Both the position numbers and the translations under genes were made by a program. A model generated the notes under the pieces. The model did no database searches. It was not told the origin of the DNA and was given only the letters and a program-made list of their open reading frames with translations. Shown piece after piece: positions 17,366 to 25,712 of a stretch of 29,529 nt of DNA. The first letter of the stretch is position 1. Every line of letters begins with the position of its first letter. The stretch is taken from the IMG/VR virus record IMGVR_UViG_3300032236_000318, positions 1-29,529 of that record; one strand, written 5' to 3'. The DNA comes from a virus.

Positions 17366-17906
17366 CAATTACTTTCGCTTGAACATTGATCGTGCGGCTC
17401 TCTAATTTAGACAGCATCTCCAACAACTCGTTTTCAACTTCTTCAATAGATTGATGTTTGATAGTTGTCTCTGTGCGTTTCTTAAACGCATCGACGCCAT
17501 CAACTTCACCTAAAGCACGAAGAGCTTGCATTCTTATTTTGGCATCTGGACTTGTAGTCTCTGCGACCAGACTGTTGACCACATACTTTTTAAGTTCGGC
17601 TAAGTCTTTGACAAGATAAGAATCGTGTTGAGCGACCATTCCAGCGAGGTAGGCAATTGTTCCATTAGAGTATGTAGCGAGTTGGGCGGCAGAGTCAGGC
17701 TTGGCCATCATGTCCTGTACGACATGTCTAGCTATATCCTTTTCGTCTTCGCCTGGTTCTATAGGTTCGCCAGTTAAATCAGATATTAACTTAACTGTCC
17801 TAGCCCTCATCTCTAACTCTTCAGTTGAAGATAGTTCAGGCATTGCGTCGCTCATGGACGACGGCATTGGAACATTGGAATCGATGTCAGGGAAAAGTTC
17901 AATCAT
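17349..17906 (-). CDS. terminase small subunit candidate
   Basis: Starting at MIELFPDIDSNVPMPSSMSDAM (ATG at 17906, 185 aa), the protein has helical segments (TSKEE-like STEELEMRARTVKLISDLTGE, then DSAAQLATYSNGTIAYLAGMVAQ) and a C-terminal coiled-coil-like EEVENELLEMLSKLES. I associate this arrangement with small terminase-like proteins encoded directly before TerL in uncultured phages. Position as first late gene, overlapping TerL, fits. A TTG frame to 17927 begins only about six bases after the predicted transcript start and is unlikely. The Shine-Dalgarno GGAG is 15 bases from the ATG, an unusually long spacing. Confidence 0.6.
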   Translation of the reverse strand: MIELFPDIDSNVPMPSSMSDAMPELSSTEELEMRARTVKLISDLTGEPIEPGEDEKDIARHVVQDMMAKPDSAAQLATYSNGTIAYLAGMVAQHDSYLVKDLAELKKYVVNSLVAETTSPDAKIRMQALRALGEVDGVDAFKKRTETTIKHQSIEEVENELLEMLSKLESRTINVQAKVIDAPKA

Positions 17907-18200: not shown

Positions 18201-18220
18201 GTGTAAAGTTATGCTATAAT
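18201..18220 (+). promoter_or_regulatory. early promoter P1
   Basis: GTGTAAAGTT (18201-18210) is followed by an extended -10, TGCTATAAT (18212-18220). No good -35 is present. The same layout recurs at 20647 and 21574. The predicted start is about 18227, where a stem-loop CACCGA-AAC/GTTA-CGGTG (18228-18251) begins. Confidence 0.65.
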
Positions 18221-19198: not shown

Positions 19199-19858
19199 AT
19201 GCAAAGCAAAGCAAAACCCCCAGTAATATCCTTAGCCGATATTGGATATAAGACAGCGGAAAATATTGATGGCAATATGGCAAACGCTCAAATGATAATG
19301 GATAGGGATTCTAAGTTCCCCAATGAAATTACAGAAGAAACCTTAGAGGGTTTGACCATTGGTTTTCAGCGTAAGTACCATGAGAAAAAAGGTTCACAAC
19401 TGTATTATAAGAGTGTTGATGAGACAACTAAAAAATCAGTTTTGATCCCTATTGGAAAAAAAGAGGATGCACCAAAAGGGCGAGAGATAATCGACATGAA
19501 TTTAAATTATGCGTTATCTGTTGAACCCTTCCAATATGGTGAAATGAGAAAAACTGAACCCGAAAAACGCGCACTAGTGGAAACCCTTAAATCCCAATTC
19601 ACCAAGTACAAGCACGATTGTCTGAGGGCATTGGTCAATTGTGCTAAGAAAATTATTGATGAGCGTAATGGTGTAGTCACTTCCACTAGAAAATCAAATA
19701 AGAATTTTATTCAAACCCTAGAATATATTTTTAGTGATCCTAAGAATGGTTTAGATAAAAAAGTCAAAACCCTTAAAAACAAAAGCGATTTAACTGCCGA
19801 TCCCGTTTTGTACAATATGGCAAAAGAGGCATTCTTTAAGGTCTACACCAAAAAATAA
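19199..19858 (+). CDS. hypothetical basic protein next to the origin candidate (219 aa)
   Basis: The 219-residue Lys-rich protein is mostly helical with no known motif. Landmarks are EITEETLEGLTIGFQRKYHE, then SVLIPIGKKEDAPKGREI, a KSQFTKYKHDCLRALVNCAKKI helix with two Cys, and a highly basic C-terminus (KKVKTLKNKSDL). AAAGGTAAGC precedes the ATG; P2 lies 60 bases upstream and a terminator follows. It stands directly beside the iteron-rich stretch, so it may be an origin-binding or replication protein. That is a guess from position and charge only. Confidence 0.6.
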   Translation: MQSKAKPPVISLADIGYKTAENIDGNMANAQMIMDRDSKFPNEITEETLEGLTIGFQRKYHEKKGSQLYYKSVDETTKKSVLIPIGKKEDAPKGREIIDMNLNYALSVEPFQYGEMRKTEPEKRALVETLKSQFTKYKHDCLRALVNCAKKIIDERNGVVTSTRKSNKNFIQTLEYIFSDPKNGLDKKVKTLKNKSDLTADPVLYNMAKEAFFKVYTKK

Positions 19859-19876
19859 ATAACTAACCACTCAAAG

Positions 19877-19902
19877 CCCAGTCTTCGGACTGGGTTTTTT
19901 TT
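19877..19902 (+). terminator. intrinsic terminator
   Basis: CCCAGTC-TTCG-GACTGGG, a perfect 7-bp stem with a UUCG tetraloop, is followed by eight T. It closes the 219-aa gene unit. Confidence 0.9.
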
Positions 19903-19917
19903 CGCCCAAAATTTTTA

Positions 19918-20004
19918 TGATACCAGTTATATGTCGTCGCGCGTGTGAACAAGCGTGCCCATCCACAAAGCAAACTTTATATAATTTATCGGATCGATCC
20001 GATA
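19918..20004 (+). repeat. non-coding repeat element, copy 2
   Basis: Second copy of the TGATACCAGTTAT / CGCGCG / TTATATA-TTTATCGG arrangement of 19037-19128. It stands directly before the TTCCAA cluster and no gene follows it closely. Confidence 0.6.
19987..20004 (+). repeat. leader palindrome, copy 2 (perfect)
   Basis: TATCGGATCGATCCGATA is a perfect 18-base palindrome, the most symmetric of the six copies. It lies beside the first TTCCAA site rather than before a gene. Confidence 0.65.
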
Positions 20005-20380
20005 TTCCAAGATTCCAACACGACTGGAATATTGGAATCACGTTTTGGAATATTGGAACAAGAGATACTTTAAGGATTGCTTAAAATATCTTATGGGTTG
20101 AATTGCGCCTAGCAGATTCCAATTTGTGTGTACGCTGAAAGTATTCAATTCTAACAAAGTGTAAAGTAGTTCCAATATTGGAATAAAAATTGGAACTTTG
20201 TAAGTGCTTGATTCTAAAGGGGAATTCGGGAATTTTAACCCGATTATTCCAAGATTCCAATGTTTTCCAAGTAGGGGGCGGTTTTGAGAGTTTGTGAAGA
20301 TCAAGAGTCTTTTAGCTGATGCAATACTTCATCACACACAACTTCACTATAAGTTAGTAAGCACTCACTACAAGCATAAG

Positions 20381-20389
20381 TTATCCACA
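20381..20389 (+). other. DnaA box
   Basis: TTATCCACA matches the bacterial DnaA-box consensus exactly and sits inside the iteron cluster. Confidence 0.55.
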
Positions 20390-20446
20390 GCTTTGCATAA
20401 CACCCTCTCAATCCCCCCGTCCTATAAAAAGACTGGAATATTGGAA

Positions 20447-20520
20447 TATTAGAATATATAAAATATATTTATATATATTTAGTATTAATAAATAGAGTAG
20501 TAACAATACTAAACTTAATA
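20447..20520. other. A+T-rich tract (possible unwinding element)
   Basis: This stretch is nearly all A and T with repeated TATATA/AAATATATTT, adjacent to the DnaA box and iterons. This is the composition of duplex-unwinding elements of origins. Confidence 0.5.
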
Positions 20521-20646
20521 CTTTTCCTTACAAAAATTCAGTTCCAACACGATTCCAATTTTCAGTTCCAAATTCCAGTAAAAATCGCCTAACTTTACAC
20601 TTCACCATTTTCACCATAACTTTTTTCCATAAACCCCTTTCATAAA

Positions 20647-20666
20647 GTGTAAAGTTATGGTATACT
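20647..20666 (+). promoter_or_regulatory. early promoter P3
   Basis: GTGTAAAGTTATGGTATACT combines the shared 10-mer and an extended -10 (TATACT at 20661-20666). The predicted start near 20673 coincides with a strong stem-loop, CGTTGC/GCAACG (20672-20699). A reverse copy of the 10-mer lies at 20591-20600. Confidence 0.7.
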
Positions 20667-20711
20667 GTATTCGTTGCTGAAGAACAATCTTAGGCAACGC
20701 TCTAAATAGTT

Positions 20712-20729
20712 TATCGGATCAATCCGATA
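20712..20729 (+). repeat. leader palindrome, copy 3
   Basis: TATCGGATCAATCCGATA has 8-base arms around CA. It lies in the leader of the 117-aa gene, about 39 bases after the predicted P3 start. Confidence 0.7.
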
Positions 20730-20763
20730 GTCGTTTTAACTTTAACCTTGAAAGAGAACCATT

Positions 20764-21117
20764 ATGCAAGCAAACTTTTTATTATCCCCACGCTTCATGC
20801 GTAAAGCAAAGCGTTACGTCCCATCAATTCCAACGATGGATAAAGCAATTCTTAATTGGTCAACTGACCAGTACATCACAGGGTTTGGCGCAACCCAATG
20901 CCATGAGGGTGACGCGGAATACTATCGCACAAACGTATGCGATCCTGACTTTAACTTTGACGAGTTCCATGATGAGCAAACGCTTGAAAGCGATTGTGAA
21001 TCGTGCGGTCTGAGGATTATCGAATCGGACACACCCGATGGGAGCATCAGCGACGAGGACGACGAGATGCAAGATGCGTTCCTCTGTGAGCTTGAGTATC
21101 AACTGAACAATGCTTAA
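20764..21117 (+). CDS. hypothetical acidic protein (117 aa)
   Basis: Basic first 20 residues (SPRFMRKAKRYVPS) precede a strongly acidic C-terminal half rich in Asp and Glu. Cysteines lie at 46, 59, 78 and 81 (the last two as CESCG), which may be a metal site. I do not recognise a family. Acidic small early proteins can mimic DNA, but nothing proves that here. AAAGAGA precedes the ATG; it is the first gene of the P3 transcript. Confidence 0.6.
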   Translation: MQANFLLSPRFMRKAKRYVPSIPTMDKAILNWSTDQYITGFGATQCHEGDAEYYRTNVCDPDFNFDEFHDEQTLESDCESCGLRIIESDTPDGSISDEDDEMQDAFLCELEYQLNNA

Positions 21118-21656: not shown

Positions 21657-21674
21657 TATCGGATCAATCCGACA
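21657..21674 (+). repeat. leader palindrome, copy 4
   Basis: TATCGGATCAATCCGACA lies in the P4 leader, 18 bases before the start of the 79-aa gene and just before its AAAGGA. Confidence 0.7.
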
Positions 21675-21692: not shown

Positions 21693-21932
21693 ATGGGAAA
21701 GCTAAAAAGTCTTTTAATCGATACCAACGAGCAAGATCGTTTGGCACTCGAATCAATCAAACCCAAGGTACACATCCTCATGTGTAACGGCAAGCCAGTA
21801 GACACATACGTTGACCGCATGACCGCAGACTACGAGATGCACCTGTGCATACAAGGCGATGCGCAAGAGCTTGGACAAAGCAACTCTTACGAGATTGTAA
21901 CCCTCCCCCTCAGAACTCATAGGATCGACTAA
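21693..21932 (+). CDS. hypothetical protein (79 aa)
   Basis: First gene behind P4, with AAAGGAATCAGT before the ATG. It contains IKPKVHILMCNGKPVDTYVDRMTADYEMHLCIQGDA, a small alpha/beta pattern with the NGKPV piece seen in other early proteins of this window. No function known. The TAATG overlap with the next gene suggests coupled translation. Confidence 0.6.
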   Translation: MGKLKSLLIDTNEQDRLALESIKPKVHILMCNGKPVDTYVDRMTADYEMHLCIQGDAQELGQSNSYEIVTLPLRTHRID

Positions 21933-22147
21933 TGACTCAACGCATGAAACCCATGTGTGTGAGATGTGGCGATACGTTCTCCCCCAAACGTGCAAACGCA
22001 GGGTATCACCTGTGCTTGTGGTGTGGTGAGGAGGACGCTAGGTCACGCAAGCACACTATCGCACCGATGCACAAATCAAACTATATGCTCATCACAAATC
22101 GTGAGGATCTTAAAGGTATCAACAACAAGGGAGGATATTACAAATGA
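21932..22147 (+). CDS. zinc-ribbon protein (71 aa)
   Basis: Cys9-x2-Cys12 and Cys28-x2-Cys31 (CVRCGDTF and CLWCGEE) form a two-knuckle zinc site. The C-terminus has IAPMHKSNYMLITNREDLKGINNKGG, a conserved signature I know from small phage proteins of Burkholderiales. DNA or RNA binding is likely but unproved. It is coupled upstream through TAATG and downstream through ATGA. Confidence 0.65.
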   Translation: MTQRMKPMCVRCGDTFSPKRANAGYHLCLWCGEEDARSRKHTIAPMHKSNYMLITNREDLKGINNKGGYYK

Positions 22148-22394: not shown

Positions 22395-23303
22395 ATGAAC
22401 TTTGAACTATCACAACCCAAACAAGTTATCTCTTTATCTACGTCAGCTAGCATTGTCTCAGTAGAAGTCAATGTGTGGACTGCAACAAAGCAAGATCGTG
22501 CGATCTCGAACGAGGTCACGACCATGAAGAATGCAGATGCGGAGGCAGGCAAGTTCACCAAGAACTTGCTCTCAAGTTCACCCGAACACAAGGCGCTGAT
22601 GAACTATCGGCAAACAGTATATAACTGGCTTCAGCGTTCCACTTATGATTGGGCAGGTTCTAGCCGTTTGTTGCCATTGGTCAACCTTGAGAAGTTTATG
22701 AAAGATTTCGAGGCGCACGATAAAGAGTTTAATCGGTTGCTTGACGAGTTCATCTTAAAGTATCCACAGATTGTGAGCGACTCAGCTTTCAAGCAGGGAG
22801 ATATGTTTGATAGATCTCAGTATCCCGACGTCGATCAGGTGCGTTCTAAGTTCCGCATTAAGTTGTTTGTTACAACTGTGCCGACTAACGATTTCCGTTC
22901 AAACATTTCCTCGGTCATAGCCGATGATTTAAAGAACCACTATGAGCGTCAGGTGAGCGAGATCATTGATAACGTGATGGTCGATGCGAGCGAGCGATTC
23001 CTAGAGATTGCATCTCGCATAAGCAATGCTTGTACGGAAGTCACACCCGATGAGGACGGCAAGGTCAAGCGCAAGAAGATCTACGACACAACCATTACAC
23101 AAGCAAAGGAGTTATGCCAGACACTAAAGGATTTCAACTTAACAAACAATCAGGCATTGGAGGATGCCCGATCACAACTGGAGAACGCATTGCGTGATGT
23201 ATCCGTAGAGGATCTGCGTGAGAGTTCGTATGTTCGTAGTGTGGTCAAGAACGATGTGGACGACATACTGTCCAAGTTCGCACCACTCAAGTCTTTTAAT
23301 TAA
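22395..23303 (+). CDS. DUF3150-like partner of the MoxR/VWA pair
   Basis: The 302-residue helical protein has an early VNVWTATKQDRAISNEVT block, then FTKNLLSSSPEHKALMNYRQTVYNWLQRSTYDWAG, RLLPLVNLEKFMKDFEAHDKEFNRLLDEFILKYP and SKFRIKLFVTTVPTNDFRSN. I recall this block order from DUF3150-type proteins encoded with AAA+ ATPase and VWA genes in phages. It may be an adaptor or substrate of the ATPase. It ends 30 bases before the ATPase gene and is preceded by the same leader block, so the two may be regulated alike. Confidence 0.65.
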   Translation: MNFELSQPKQVISLSTSASIVSVEVNVWTATKQDRAISNEVTTMKNADAEAGKFTKNLLSSSPEHKALMNYRQTVYNWLQRSTYDWAGSSRLLPLVNLEKFMKDFEAHDKEFNRLLDEFILKYPQIVSDSAFKQGDMFDRSQYPDVDQVRSKFRIKLFVTTVPTNDFRSNISSVIADDLKNHYERQVSEIIDNVMVDASERFLEIASRISNACTEVTPDEDGKVKRKKIYDTTITQAKELCQTLKDFNLTNNQALEDARSQLENALRDVSVEDLRESSYVRSVVKNDVDDILSKFAPLKSFN

Positions 23304-23333: not shown

Positions 23334-24401
23334 ATGTCACAAATCAATTTTAATCTCACATTGTCAATCGACGAGACCAAAGACTTCATCAAAGTAATGG
23401 CAGATCAAGTTACACCTGTCGTGGTATCTGAGCCGGGGGTCGGCAAGTCAACCATACTGAAGACTCTTGAAGCTGAGATGGGAGACGAGTACGATTACAT
23501 CTATGTCGATTGTCCTGTTAAAGATATGATGGACGTTGCGGCGAGCATTCCCAACCATGATACCAAGTCTCTCGAATACTATGTGTCAGACTTGTTCAAG
23601 ATCAACAATGGTCGTAAGAAAGTCATCATGCTCGACGAGTTTATGAAAGCACCCAAACTCTTGCAGATCATCTTTACTAGATTAATGCTTGAGAGAACTG
23701 TCGGCGATGTGCCCCTGCCCGAAGGTTCGTTGTTGTTTGGTACAAGTAACAATGCAAGCGATGGTGTGGGTGACAATATGCTCGCTCACGCAGGCAATCG
23801 TGTAACGATCATCAACATGAGGAAACCCAATCACATGGAGTGGAATGTGTGGGCGACTAACAATGGGATTGCTAGACCGATCAGGGCATGGGCATCAATG
23901 AATACCAAGGCGTTCAAGTCTTACAAAGATCCCGATCAGAAAGACAATGAGTATATCTTTCAACCCTCATCTACTAGTAAGCAGTTTGTCTCACCTCGCA
24001 GTCTTGCTAAGGCATCTACTATCGTCAATCGTAGAGACAAGATCACAGAGAATGCTCTCATGGTTGGTCTTGCAGGTACTATCGGCGAGGCAGGCGCGAG
24101 ATCAATGTCTGCGTTCATTGCGCTAGAGGGCAAGCTGATGTCGTTCGCTGATGTGATGAAGAACTCATCAACTGTTAAAGTTCCTGATGATGTGTCTGCT
24201 CTTGTGATGATGATGTTCGAGGCGGTCGATAACATTCAGACTCAAGATGAGTTGAACACATACATGGAGTTCGTGAATCGTATTAAGAATGCAGAGATCC
24301 AGTCTATATTCTTTACGATGATTATGCACACTCGCCCCAAGATCGCTAGGTACAACGATGCGATCAACAAATGGGCGGTTAGTAACCACAAGTTAATGTG
24401 A
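23334..24401 (+). CDS. MoxR-type AAA+ ATPase
   Basis: The 355-residue protein has Walker A EPGVGKST (residues 33-40), Walker B VIMLDEF (97-103), a sensor-1 region LLFGTSNN (133-140) and a conserved arginine in AGNRVTII (156). A helical lid section (SPRSLAKAST) comes before the C-terminus. MoxR ATPases are remodelling machines that usually work with VWA-domain partners, and the next large gene encodes one. AAAGGAAATT precedes the ATG. It likely forms a hexameric ring and acts with its partner on an unknown target. Confidence 0.85.
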   Translation: MSQINFNLTLSIDETKDFIKVMADQVTPVVVSEPGVGKSTILKTLEAEMGDEYDYIYVDCPVKDMMDVAASIPNHDTKSLEYYVSDLFKINNGRKKVIMLDEFMKAPKLLQIIFTRLMLERTVGDVPLPEGSLLFGTSNNASDGVGDNMLAHAGNRVTIINMRKPNHMEWNVWATNNGIARPIRAWASMNTKAFKSYKDPDQKDNEYIFQPSSTSKQFVSPRSLAKASTIVNRRDKITENALMVGLAGTIGEAGARSMSAFIALEGKLMSFADVMKNSSTVKVPDDVSALVMMMFEAVDNIQTQDELNTYMEFVNRIKNAEIQSIFFTMIMHTRPKIARYNDAINKWAVSNHKLM

Positions 24402-24408
24402 GGTGAGA

Positions 24409-24510
24409 ATGTCTTACATAAAGTACAACCCTATTAGGTGCTACTTTGCGATAGTGTATTTGCTATCGTTTGTAGTGTTGATTCTAGATTTATTTGTTTG
24501 GAGAAGATAA
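24409..24510 (+). CDS. 33-aa single-pass membrane microprotein
   Basis: The frame MSYIKYNPIRCYFAIVYLLS then FVVLILDLFVWRR has a hydrophobic core of about 20 residues and positive ends. GAGGTGAGA precedes the ATG and its stop overlaps the VWA start as TAATG. It may anchor or regulate the AAA/VWA machine at the membrane, or only serve as a coupled leader. Confidence 0.5.
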   Translation: MSYIKYNPIRCYFAIVYLLSFVVLILDLFVWRR

Positions 24511-25712
24511 TGTTAACTCAAGAAGAAAGAGTAATGAAAGCGCACATCACAATGATGAAGCACCCTGAGACTGCGCTGTATTCGGGTGTGATGATGATGG
24601 GTACAACTGAGGTAGTCGATACACCTGTGACTGCGTACACCGATGGTGTAAACAAACGCTATGGCAGAGCATTCTTAGAGAAGGTCTGTAAGGATCAGCT
24701 TGAGGTCAATGGTCTAGTCTTGCATGAGAACTTGCACATCTCTCTACGTCACATGATCCACAATCGTGATTTGTTTGAAGAAGACAGATCTATTGCAAAT
24801 CAGGCGGCTGACTATGTGGTTAACTCTATCATCAATAACTTGAAAGATACAAGGCTAGCCAAACTGCCCGAAGGTGGGCTATACGATCCTAAGTTCAAGG
24901 ATATGTCCATGCGTGAGATCTATCGCATCTTGAAGGAAGAACAAGAGGAAGGCGATGGAGGCGGTGGAGGTGATGACCAAGGTAATGGATCGGGTTCACC
25001 CGATAAGAAGAATAAGGACTACGAGTTCGATGAGCATGACACAAGCGGTGGCATGACAACCGAAGAACTCAAGGAAGCTAACGAGCGTATCGATAGAGCG
25101 TTGCGTGAGGGTGCGTTGCTTGCAGGGAGATTGGGTGTTGATATTCCTAGAGAGATCACAGAGATACTCAAGCCTGTGGTTGATTGGAAAGAAGCTCTGC
25201 GTGACTTTGTGTCTGCATCATGCAAAGGTAAGGATGAGTACACATGGCGCAAATTCAATCGTAGGATGCTTGCTAACGATATGTATCTACCAACTGTGGA
25301 GAATGAAACAATTGGTGAGGTCATTGTCGCTATCGATACGTCAGGTTCTATCGGTCAGGATCAGATCAATGAGTTCGCTTCAGAACTGGTATCTATCTGT
25401 GAAGCCGTTGAGCCTGATGCGGTGCGGATTTTGTGGTGGGATACCCAAGTGCATGGGCAACAAGTGTTCACCGATAACTACGCAAACATTGGTGGAATGC
25501 TCAAGCCACAAGGCGGTGGTGGAACTAGAGTATCGTGTGTATCCGATTATATCAATAAGCACAAGCTGAAAGCTGAGTGTGTAATTGTATTCACAGATGG
25601 TTATCTTGAGAACAATGTGAAGTGGGAGATCAGCGATCCAACATTGTGGATGATTACGGATAACAAAAATTGGGAAGTTCCAAGCGGTAAGAAAGTTATA
25701 TTCAACAGATAA
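24510..25712 (+). CDS. DUF2201-like metallopeptidase-domain/VWA protein
   Basis: Starting at MLTQEERVMK (400 aa), the N-terminal domain has HENLH at 72-76 within GLVLHENLHISLRHMIHNRDLFEED and NQAADYVVNSII, matching the DUF2201 N-terminal (putative metallopeptidase) pattern. A Gly/Asp-rich linker (about 149-163) follows. The C-terminal VWA-like domain has a MIDAS motif DTSGS at 276-280, a GGGGT at 335-339 and FTDGY at 361-365. VWA proteins of this kind pair with MoxR ATPases. I start at 24510, which has GGAGAAGATA before it and a TAATG overlap; an earlier GTG at 24438 would cover most of the microprotein. Confidence 0.8.
   Translation: MLTQEERVMKAHITMMKHPETALYSGVMMMGTTEVVDTPVTAYTDGVNKRYGRAFLEKVCKDQLEVNGLVLHENLHISLRHMIHNRDLFEEDRSIANQAADYVVNSIINNLKDTRLAKLPEGGLYDPKFKDMSMREIYRILKEEQEEGDGGGGGDDQGNGSGSPDKKNKDYEFDEHDTSGGMTTEELKEANERIDRALREGALLAGRLGVDIPREITEILKPVVDWKEALRDFVSASCKGKDEYTWRKFNRRMLANDMYLPTVENETIGEVIVAIDTSGSIGQDQINEFASELVSICEAVEPDAVRILWWDTQVHGQQVFTDNYANIGGMLKPQGGGGTRVSCVSDYINKHKLKAECVIVFTDGYLENNVKWEISDPTLWMITDNKNWEVPSGKKVIFNR

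Follow-up and report, generated by a model that had tools for sequence, protein, structure and literature searches.

A dense cluster of short repeats in a noncoding gap of the window (the whole stretch of virus DNA that was analysed, 29,529 nucleotides) very probably serves as the origin of replication for a large and almost uncultured group of water phages, tailed and with genomes of about 60 kb. We consider it highly probable that this is a theta-type iteron/IHF origin whose initiator, a phage-encoded, self-loading DUF927 primase-helicase, reads the iterons through its winged helix. The features of an iteron-type origin are found here as a noncoding repeat cluster, an A/T tract, an IHF site and a covarying initiator candidate. 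An origin had been proposed in an earlier note made from the window alone, and that proposal is now supported by the conserved position and layout of the cluster in about 100 relatives, by the IHF consensus and by the covariation of the primase-helicase.

The iteron cluster in the window

Sixteen exact TTCCAA/TTGGAA sites lie within 567 bp (positions 20005-20571), where the densest 567 bp in 500 first-order shuffles of the window held at most five, and the density that had first drawn attention to the cluster is thus borne out; a search for clusters of any hexamer in 60 shuffles gave a maximum of seven copies per cluster. The whole window contains 37 such sites against 21 expected, and the 21 beyond the array correspond to the chance level, so that a genome-wide stoperator pattern of scattered sites is not seen in the window. 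Three one-base variants (TTCCAG/CTGGAA) bring the total to 19, and the noncoding gap that contains them all (19859-20763) measures about 900 bp and is flanked on the left by the gene of a 219-aa protein and on the right by the next rightward gene, which starts at 20764. The features of the region are the following:

19199-19858, forward strand: gene of the 219-aa protein, ending 146 bp before the array
19987-20004: palindrome TATCGGATCGATCCGATA at the left array edge, repeated on the right side
20005-20577: iteron array of 16 exact and 3 variant sites, orientations ++----++--+++--++++, in the same place in relatives
20201-20213, reverse strand: perfect IHF consensus, TAAGTGCTTGATT = WATCAANNNNTTR, unlisted in the earlier note
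20247-20270, forward strand: tandem iterons TTCCAAGATTCCAATGTTTTCCAA, serving as inner forward pair in the opposed layout that is conserved
20261-20432: spacer between the opposed tandem pairs, with ...GGGGG...GAAGATCAAGAG...GCAA common to relatives
20381-20389, forward strand: perfect DnaA box TTATCCACA, clade-specific (6 of 59 arrays)
20433-20446, reverse strand: tandem iteron pair CTGGAATATTGGAA, adjoining the A/T tract
20437-20515: A/T-rich tract inside the cluster, 87% A+T, candidate unwinding element
20647-20666, forward strand: early promoter-like repeat GTGTAAAGTTATGGTATACT, adjoining the array
20712-20729: palindrome TATCGGATCAATCCGATA after the promoter
21932-22147: gene of a 71-aa Cys4 protein (69-71 aa in relatives), kept in 59 of 59 array loci

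No consensus RNA fold was found for the spacer, Rfam and tRNA scans returned no match, and dyad arms inside the tandem pairs exceeded shuffles in just 9 of 30 arrays. A further tandem iteron pair occurs at 17867-17880, within the first part of the gene for the small terminase; it is also seen in three relatives (L002, L004 and L005) and is absent from other site classes. The promoter-like repeat is found at 18201, 20647 and 21574, as two identical copies and one with two changes. The palindrome TATCGGATNNATCCGATA, at 19987-20004, 20712-20729 and 21657-21674, brackets the array and trails the early promoters, with weaker copies between 19110 and 28092; allowing up to two mismatches, ten copies are present against 0.56 expected. 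Among 59 relatives, 26 have another palindrome with the same stem on both sides of the array, and the palindrome is therefore a second motif that changes in concert.

Iteron arrays in related phages

Relatives were reached through the 302-aa protein encoded at 22395-23303, which was scanned against viral contigs and yielded 21 loci, then 80 of 289 matches, and then 65 and 80 loci. Where the upstream DNA is long enough, nearly all loci show one short motif densely repeated 1.4 to 3.9 kb before the 302-aa gene, and about 100 viral contigs carry an array in this same place. The repeats, whose absence from close relatives had been named beforehand as a possible refutation of the origin, are present in all of them. 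The layout recurs from array to array: single sites, a forward tandem pair with a period of 8-9 bp, a spacer and a reverse tandem pair are followed by the A/T tract, further sites and the promoter-like repeat. Among 26 tabulated arrays, whose rows are related and for which no probability is hence given, the forward and the reverse pair stand 132-134 or 143-146 bp apart, save in one array (138 bp); the two distance classes differ by one helical turn. The clade of the window has a longer spacer between the opposed pairs.

The closest relatives have TTCCAA in common with the window, and the other site classes are TGTTCCA, TGTTCTA, TGTTCAA, TGTTCTG, TGTTCCGG, GGTTCAT and TGTTCAT. Within each genome nearly all of the 8-19 sites are the same version of the motif, and the sites switch in concert while flanking elements and layout stay unchanged. 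Sharp class switches in nearly identical genomes amount to only about two or three independent events. One contig of 63.6 kb (G023, the source of loci L126 and L145) carries the same primase gene end at both of its ends, which suggests a complete, circularly assembled genome.

IHF consensus, A/T tract and DnaA box

The IHF consensus is strongly enriched in the arrays. In a first sample, 57 of 59 arrays contain it, with 78 sites where 3.5-3.8 would be expected in all; a second sample of 40 arrays, dominated by one subclade, has it in strict form in 14 arrays and with at most one mismatch in 24, compared to 5 of 300 random windows. A 60-mer of 80% or more A+T is present in nearly all arrays. The tract that the earlier note had described does exist in the window, although it lies inside the cluster instead of adjoining it. 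The DnaA box had been named among the established parts of many origins. A perfect box is indeed there; it recurs in only the six arrays noted above, all of the window's clade, and is therefore a clade-specific extra, secondary to the rest of the origin. The sequence TTATNCACA occurs three times in the window against 1.7 expected, which is not significant on its own. Among iteron-type origins a conserved DnaA box is optional.

Cumulative GC skew had been suggested as a check on the origin. The minimum lies near the array without coinciding with it, at 2.2 kb in the window and at 1.5-3.5 kb in five long contigs; it does not discriminate, because it coincides with the switch in gene direction between divergent genes.

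Covariation of the primase-helicase with the iterons

Five genomes that are more than 90% identical in many proteins and belong to different site classes (G008 and G012 with TGTTCCA, G010 and G011 with TGTTCTA, G009 with TGTTCAA) were compared across 30 shared protein families. The family that tracks the site class best, and first by far, is the DUF927 primase-helicase of about 989 aa, with identities of 0.83 and 0.92 within classes and of 0.37-0.56 between them. Next in rank, and following the class weakly, come two neighbours of the primase-helicase (a 72-aa protein and a 100-aa HTH protein) and DNA polymerase A; no tracking of the class is seen in the same comparison for the 219-aa family, the 302-aa protein or the ATPase. 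Between TGTTCTA and TGTTCCA genomes, the first 350 residues of the primase-helicase are mostly 64-86% identical (46% in the lowest block) and the rest 21-58%, and this drop near residue 350 places the break within the primase-helicase gene itself.

A broader comparison took in 42 genomes with both array and primase-helicase, correcting identity for that of marker proteins and permuting the class labels. Genomes of the same class show an excess identity of 0.049 for the C-terminal winged helix (permutation p = 0.001), against 0.019 for the AAA+ part (p = 0.06) and 0.013 for the N-terminus (p = 0.11); these p-values serve as guides, since label permutation ignores shared ancestry. Among these 42 genomes, clear covariation with the site class thus appears in the winged helix only. 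An earlier permutation test with 24 genomes had given p = 0.03 for the winged helix, and parsimony of the site class on the gene trees of 24 genomes required 7-10 changes on every tree, which does not separate one gene from another. Individual pairs illustrate the pattern: a TGTTCCA genome (L067) and three TGTTCTA genomes (L154, L157 and L174) are 0.73-0.81 identical in the AAA+ part and 0.66-0.69 in the C-terminal domain, and TGTTCTA pairs with lower AAA+ identity still reach 0.73-0.80 in the C-terminal domain. The residues EPRG in the winged helix are present in all TGTTCTA rows and seem to go with that class; as its determinant they were discarded, having been chosen after the fact and occurring also in a GGTTCCA genome (L200) and in two TTCCAA rows.

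Homology and fold of the primase-helicase

The gene is found in every contig of at least 30 kb brought in through the array loci, and in these relatives it lies 16-20 kb from the array. The window ends before that distance is reached, and tblastn finds no primase gene in it; synteny with contig G002 would place the primase-helicase of the window phage some 16 kb past the array. The relatives' DUF927 proteins, which have primase and helicase matches, also match by profile the SaPI protein 8tch, SaPIbov1 Rep (E 2e-12), and the SCCmec protein Cch, 5dgk (E 1e-9). An AlphaFold2 model of the last 618 residues of the G002 protein (pLDDT 81) ends in a C-terminal winged helix and has 5dgk as its best fold match (Foldseek E 4e-23; VIA Z 31.6 over 479 residues), together with 8tch, a replication initiator with helicase activity (Foldseek E 7e-20; VIA Z 28.3). 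MCM comes next among the folds (Z 13), and the VIA alignment extends to residue 604 of 618. The order of domains is a primase-like N-terminus, an MCM-like AAA+ helicase and the C-terminal winged helix. Cch, with its DUF927 domain, is related to SaPIbov1 Rep, and the C-terminal domain of SaPI Rep recognises an origin of short iterons (PMC7581432); the part of the phage protein that covaries with the sites is therefore the part expected to read them.

Relatives of the primase-helicase occur in just 15 phage records, and in five of these the match covers most of the protein. In Pseudomonas phage Rollin, whose protein is 25% identical, the repeats form another array, AAAAGGTAG, accompanied by a single IHF site of matching form and by a TAATAATAA tract. 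For the isolates closest by terminase, DSL-LC04, 023Pt_psg01 and HTVC027P, the annotation names a different primase, and the parts of them that were examined contain no IHF-bearing array of this kind.

Neighbouring genes

The 219-aa protein had been suggested as a binder of the repeats, a suggestion that fails on its identity, which ignores the site class. In nearly every locus that extends so far, a homologue precedes the array. A model of the protein (pLDDT 86.6) found no fold match in the PDB, and a single-query search of viral contigs found none in sequence. The family diverges fast, at about 47% identity compared with 82-96% for most neighbours, and two loci carry two tandem copies upstream of the array (L007, 6222-7650; L008, 6263-7715). 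Two further candidate binders were set aside, namely the Cys4 protein, which does not split by site class, and the 100-aa HTH protein, whose putative recognition helix is nearly constant. The MoxR-like pair encoded at 23334-25712, an ATPase and after it a DUF2201 metallopeptidase/VWA-like protein, is kept throughout the group.

Alternative explanations

Repeats, an IHF site and a nearby terminase could also denote a packaging (cos or pac) region, with the repeats bound by the small terminase and IHF helping as at lambda cosB, where repeats are likewise combined with IHF. Some 2 kb separate the array from the small terminase gene, which has the tandem pair described above within it, and TerS is more divergent than its neighbours. 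TerS does not, however, track the site class, being almost identical in a TGTTCCA and a TGTTCTA genome (L047 and L017), the pair inside terS is missing from every other class, and cos and pac alike can do without an A/T tract, all of which makes packaging very improbable. That the array is instead an operator or enhancer, through which a transcription regulator would control the early promoter at 20647, is very improbable as well. A promoter-like repeat does stand directly to the right of the array, also in the relatives examined, and the conserved HTH protein beside the primase-helicase follows the class weakly in its identity, but its putative recognition helix, SRxTxHSWFRG, is nearly the same across site classes, the replication protein covaries far better, and 19 sites over 570 bp with an A/T tract and opposed pairs exceed the need of one promoter. 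A regulatory role of the array in addition to that of an origin is possible.

A partition centromere, in which a parS-like array would serve a plasmid-like stage, is brought to mind by TGTTCCAC of one relative, which equals half of the bacterial parS. Most of the sites, nevertheless, are single or repeated in direct orientation, the proteins searched gave no match to the ParB family, and the phages look lytic in the parts examined, so that we consider this extremely improbable. A last alternative keeps the origin and assigns its reading to another protein linked to the primase-helicase, the latter covarying through linkage only. The neighbours of 72 aa and 100 aa and DNA polymerase A, which come next in following the class, speak for it; the differences in these three proteins are small, the HTH recognition helix barely changes, the break falls inside the primase gene and the strongest signal is in the winged helix of the primase-helicase, and we regard linkage as unlikely.

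Proposed mechanism and implications

In the proposed iteron/IHF origin, the approximately 19 short iterons, the IHF bend site and the A/T tract would form a nucleoprotein complex with the primase-helicase encoded about 16-20 kb downstream, the winged helix of which would recognise the iterons. The two opposed tandem pairs would seat two hexamers facing in opposite directions, IHF would bend the DNA, the A/T tract would open, and the phage polymerase would then replicate outward in both directions. In the clade of the window, DnaA may assist. What the analysis establishes is the conserved architecture, the enrichment of the IHF consensus, the joint change of sites in a genome, the covariation, and the homology and fold of the protein; direct binding, unwinding, direction, the loading of a double hexamer and the presence of the primase gene in the window phage are inferred.

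Ectopic lambda origins block lambda (PMC4488673), and shared iterons can therefore carry a cost. We tentatively suggest, at somewhat short of an even chance, that the iteron sequence is a replication type code under diversifying selection, in which sharing iterons would be punished by co-infecting relatives, satellites or origin-targeting nucleases, and in which the winged helix and all 10-19 distant sites would be swapped at once, with variation in the bases next to a constant TGTTC core. Such a type code, if true, would mean that nature has sampled orthogonal pairs of initiator and origin across the whole family. On the one hand, the results would supply an origin and a candidate initiator for a large group of phages, of which the searched collection contains almost no isolate, and would extend the range of the SaPI-Rep/Cch type of initiator beyond small islands, to tailed phages of some 60 kb. 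On the other hand, the joint change of a distant origin and its initiator, at many sites at once, would be a natural record of change in a recognition code, and the change in the DNA code of the initiator becomes testable by simple swaps.

Comparison with known systems

The system works like a SaPI-Rep or a P4 origin, yet differs from both in tested features. With SaPIbov1 Rep and SCCmec Cch the phage protein shares the MCM-like AAA+ helicase and the C-terminal winged helix, and with SaPI the origin shares short iterons, which are read there by the C-terminal domain (PMC7581432). The phage protein differs from these in the primase-like part fused at its N-terminus, and the origin, which in SaPI lies directly downstream of rep, is here 16-20 kb away, includes an IHF site and is carried by large tailed phages of environmental samples.

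P4 alpha also combines primase and helicase in one protein, its helicase being of a different family. The type 1 iterons of P4 (TGTTCACC, from the record annotation) form pairs 9-10 bp apart and, as here, in both orientations; they have the core TGTTC in common with TGTTCCA, TGTTCTA and TGTTCAA and differ in the rest, and the shared core may reflect convergence or chance. The IHF consensus was not found in the P4 ori, and no second array of the same site, comparable to the second cis region crr of P4, occurs within the loci examined.

The iteron plasmids R6K and pSC101 resemble these phages in iterons, IHF site, A/T-rich tract and, for the clade of the window, the DnaA box; unlike in those plasmids, the initiator here would be the helicase itself and not a winged-helix plasmid Rep, and the DnaA box is not conserved. 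A parallel in the coupling of initiator and origin iterons is found in PLE, the satellites of ICP1, where iterons and the DNA-binding domain of RepA covary and have been swapped several times (PMC8263062). The PLE initiator is of the unrelated RepA_N type, and escape is driven there by the phage nuclease Odn.
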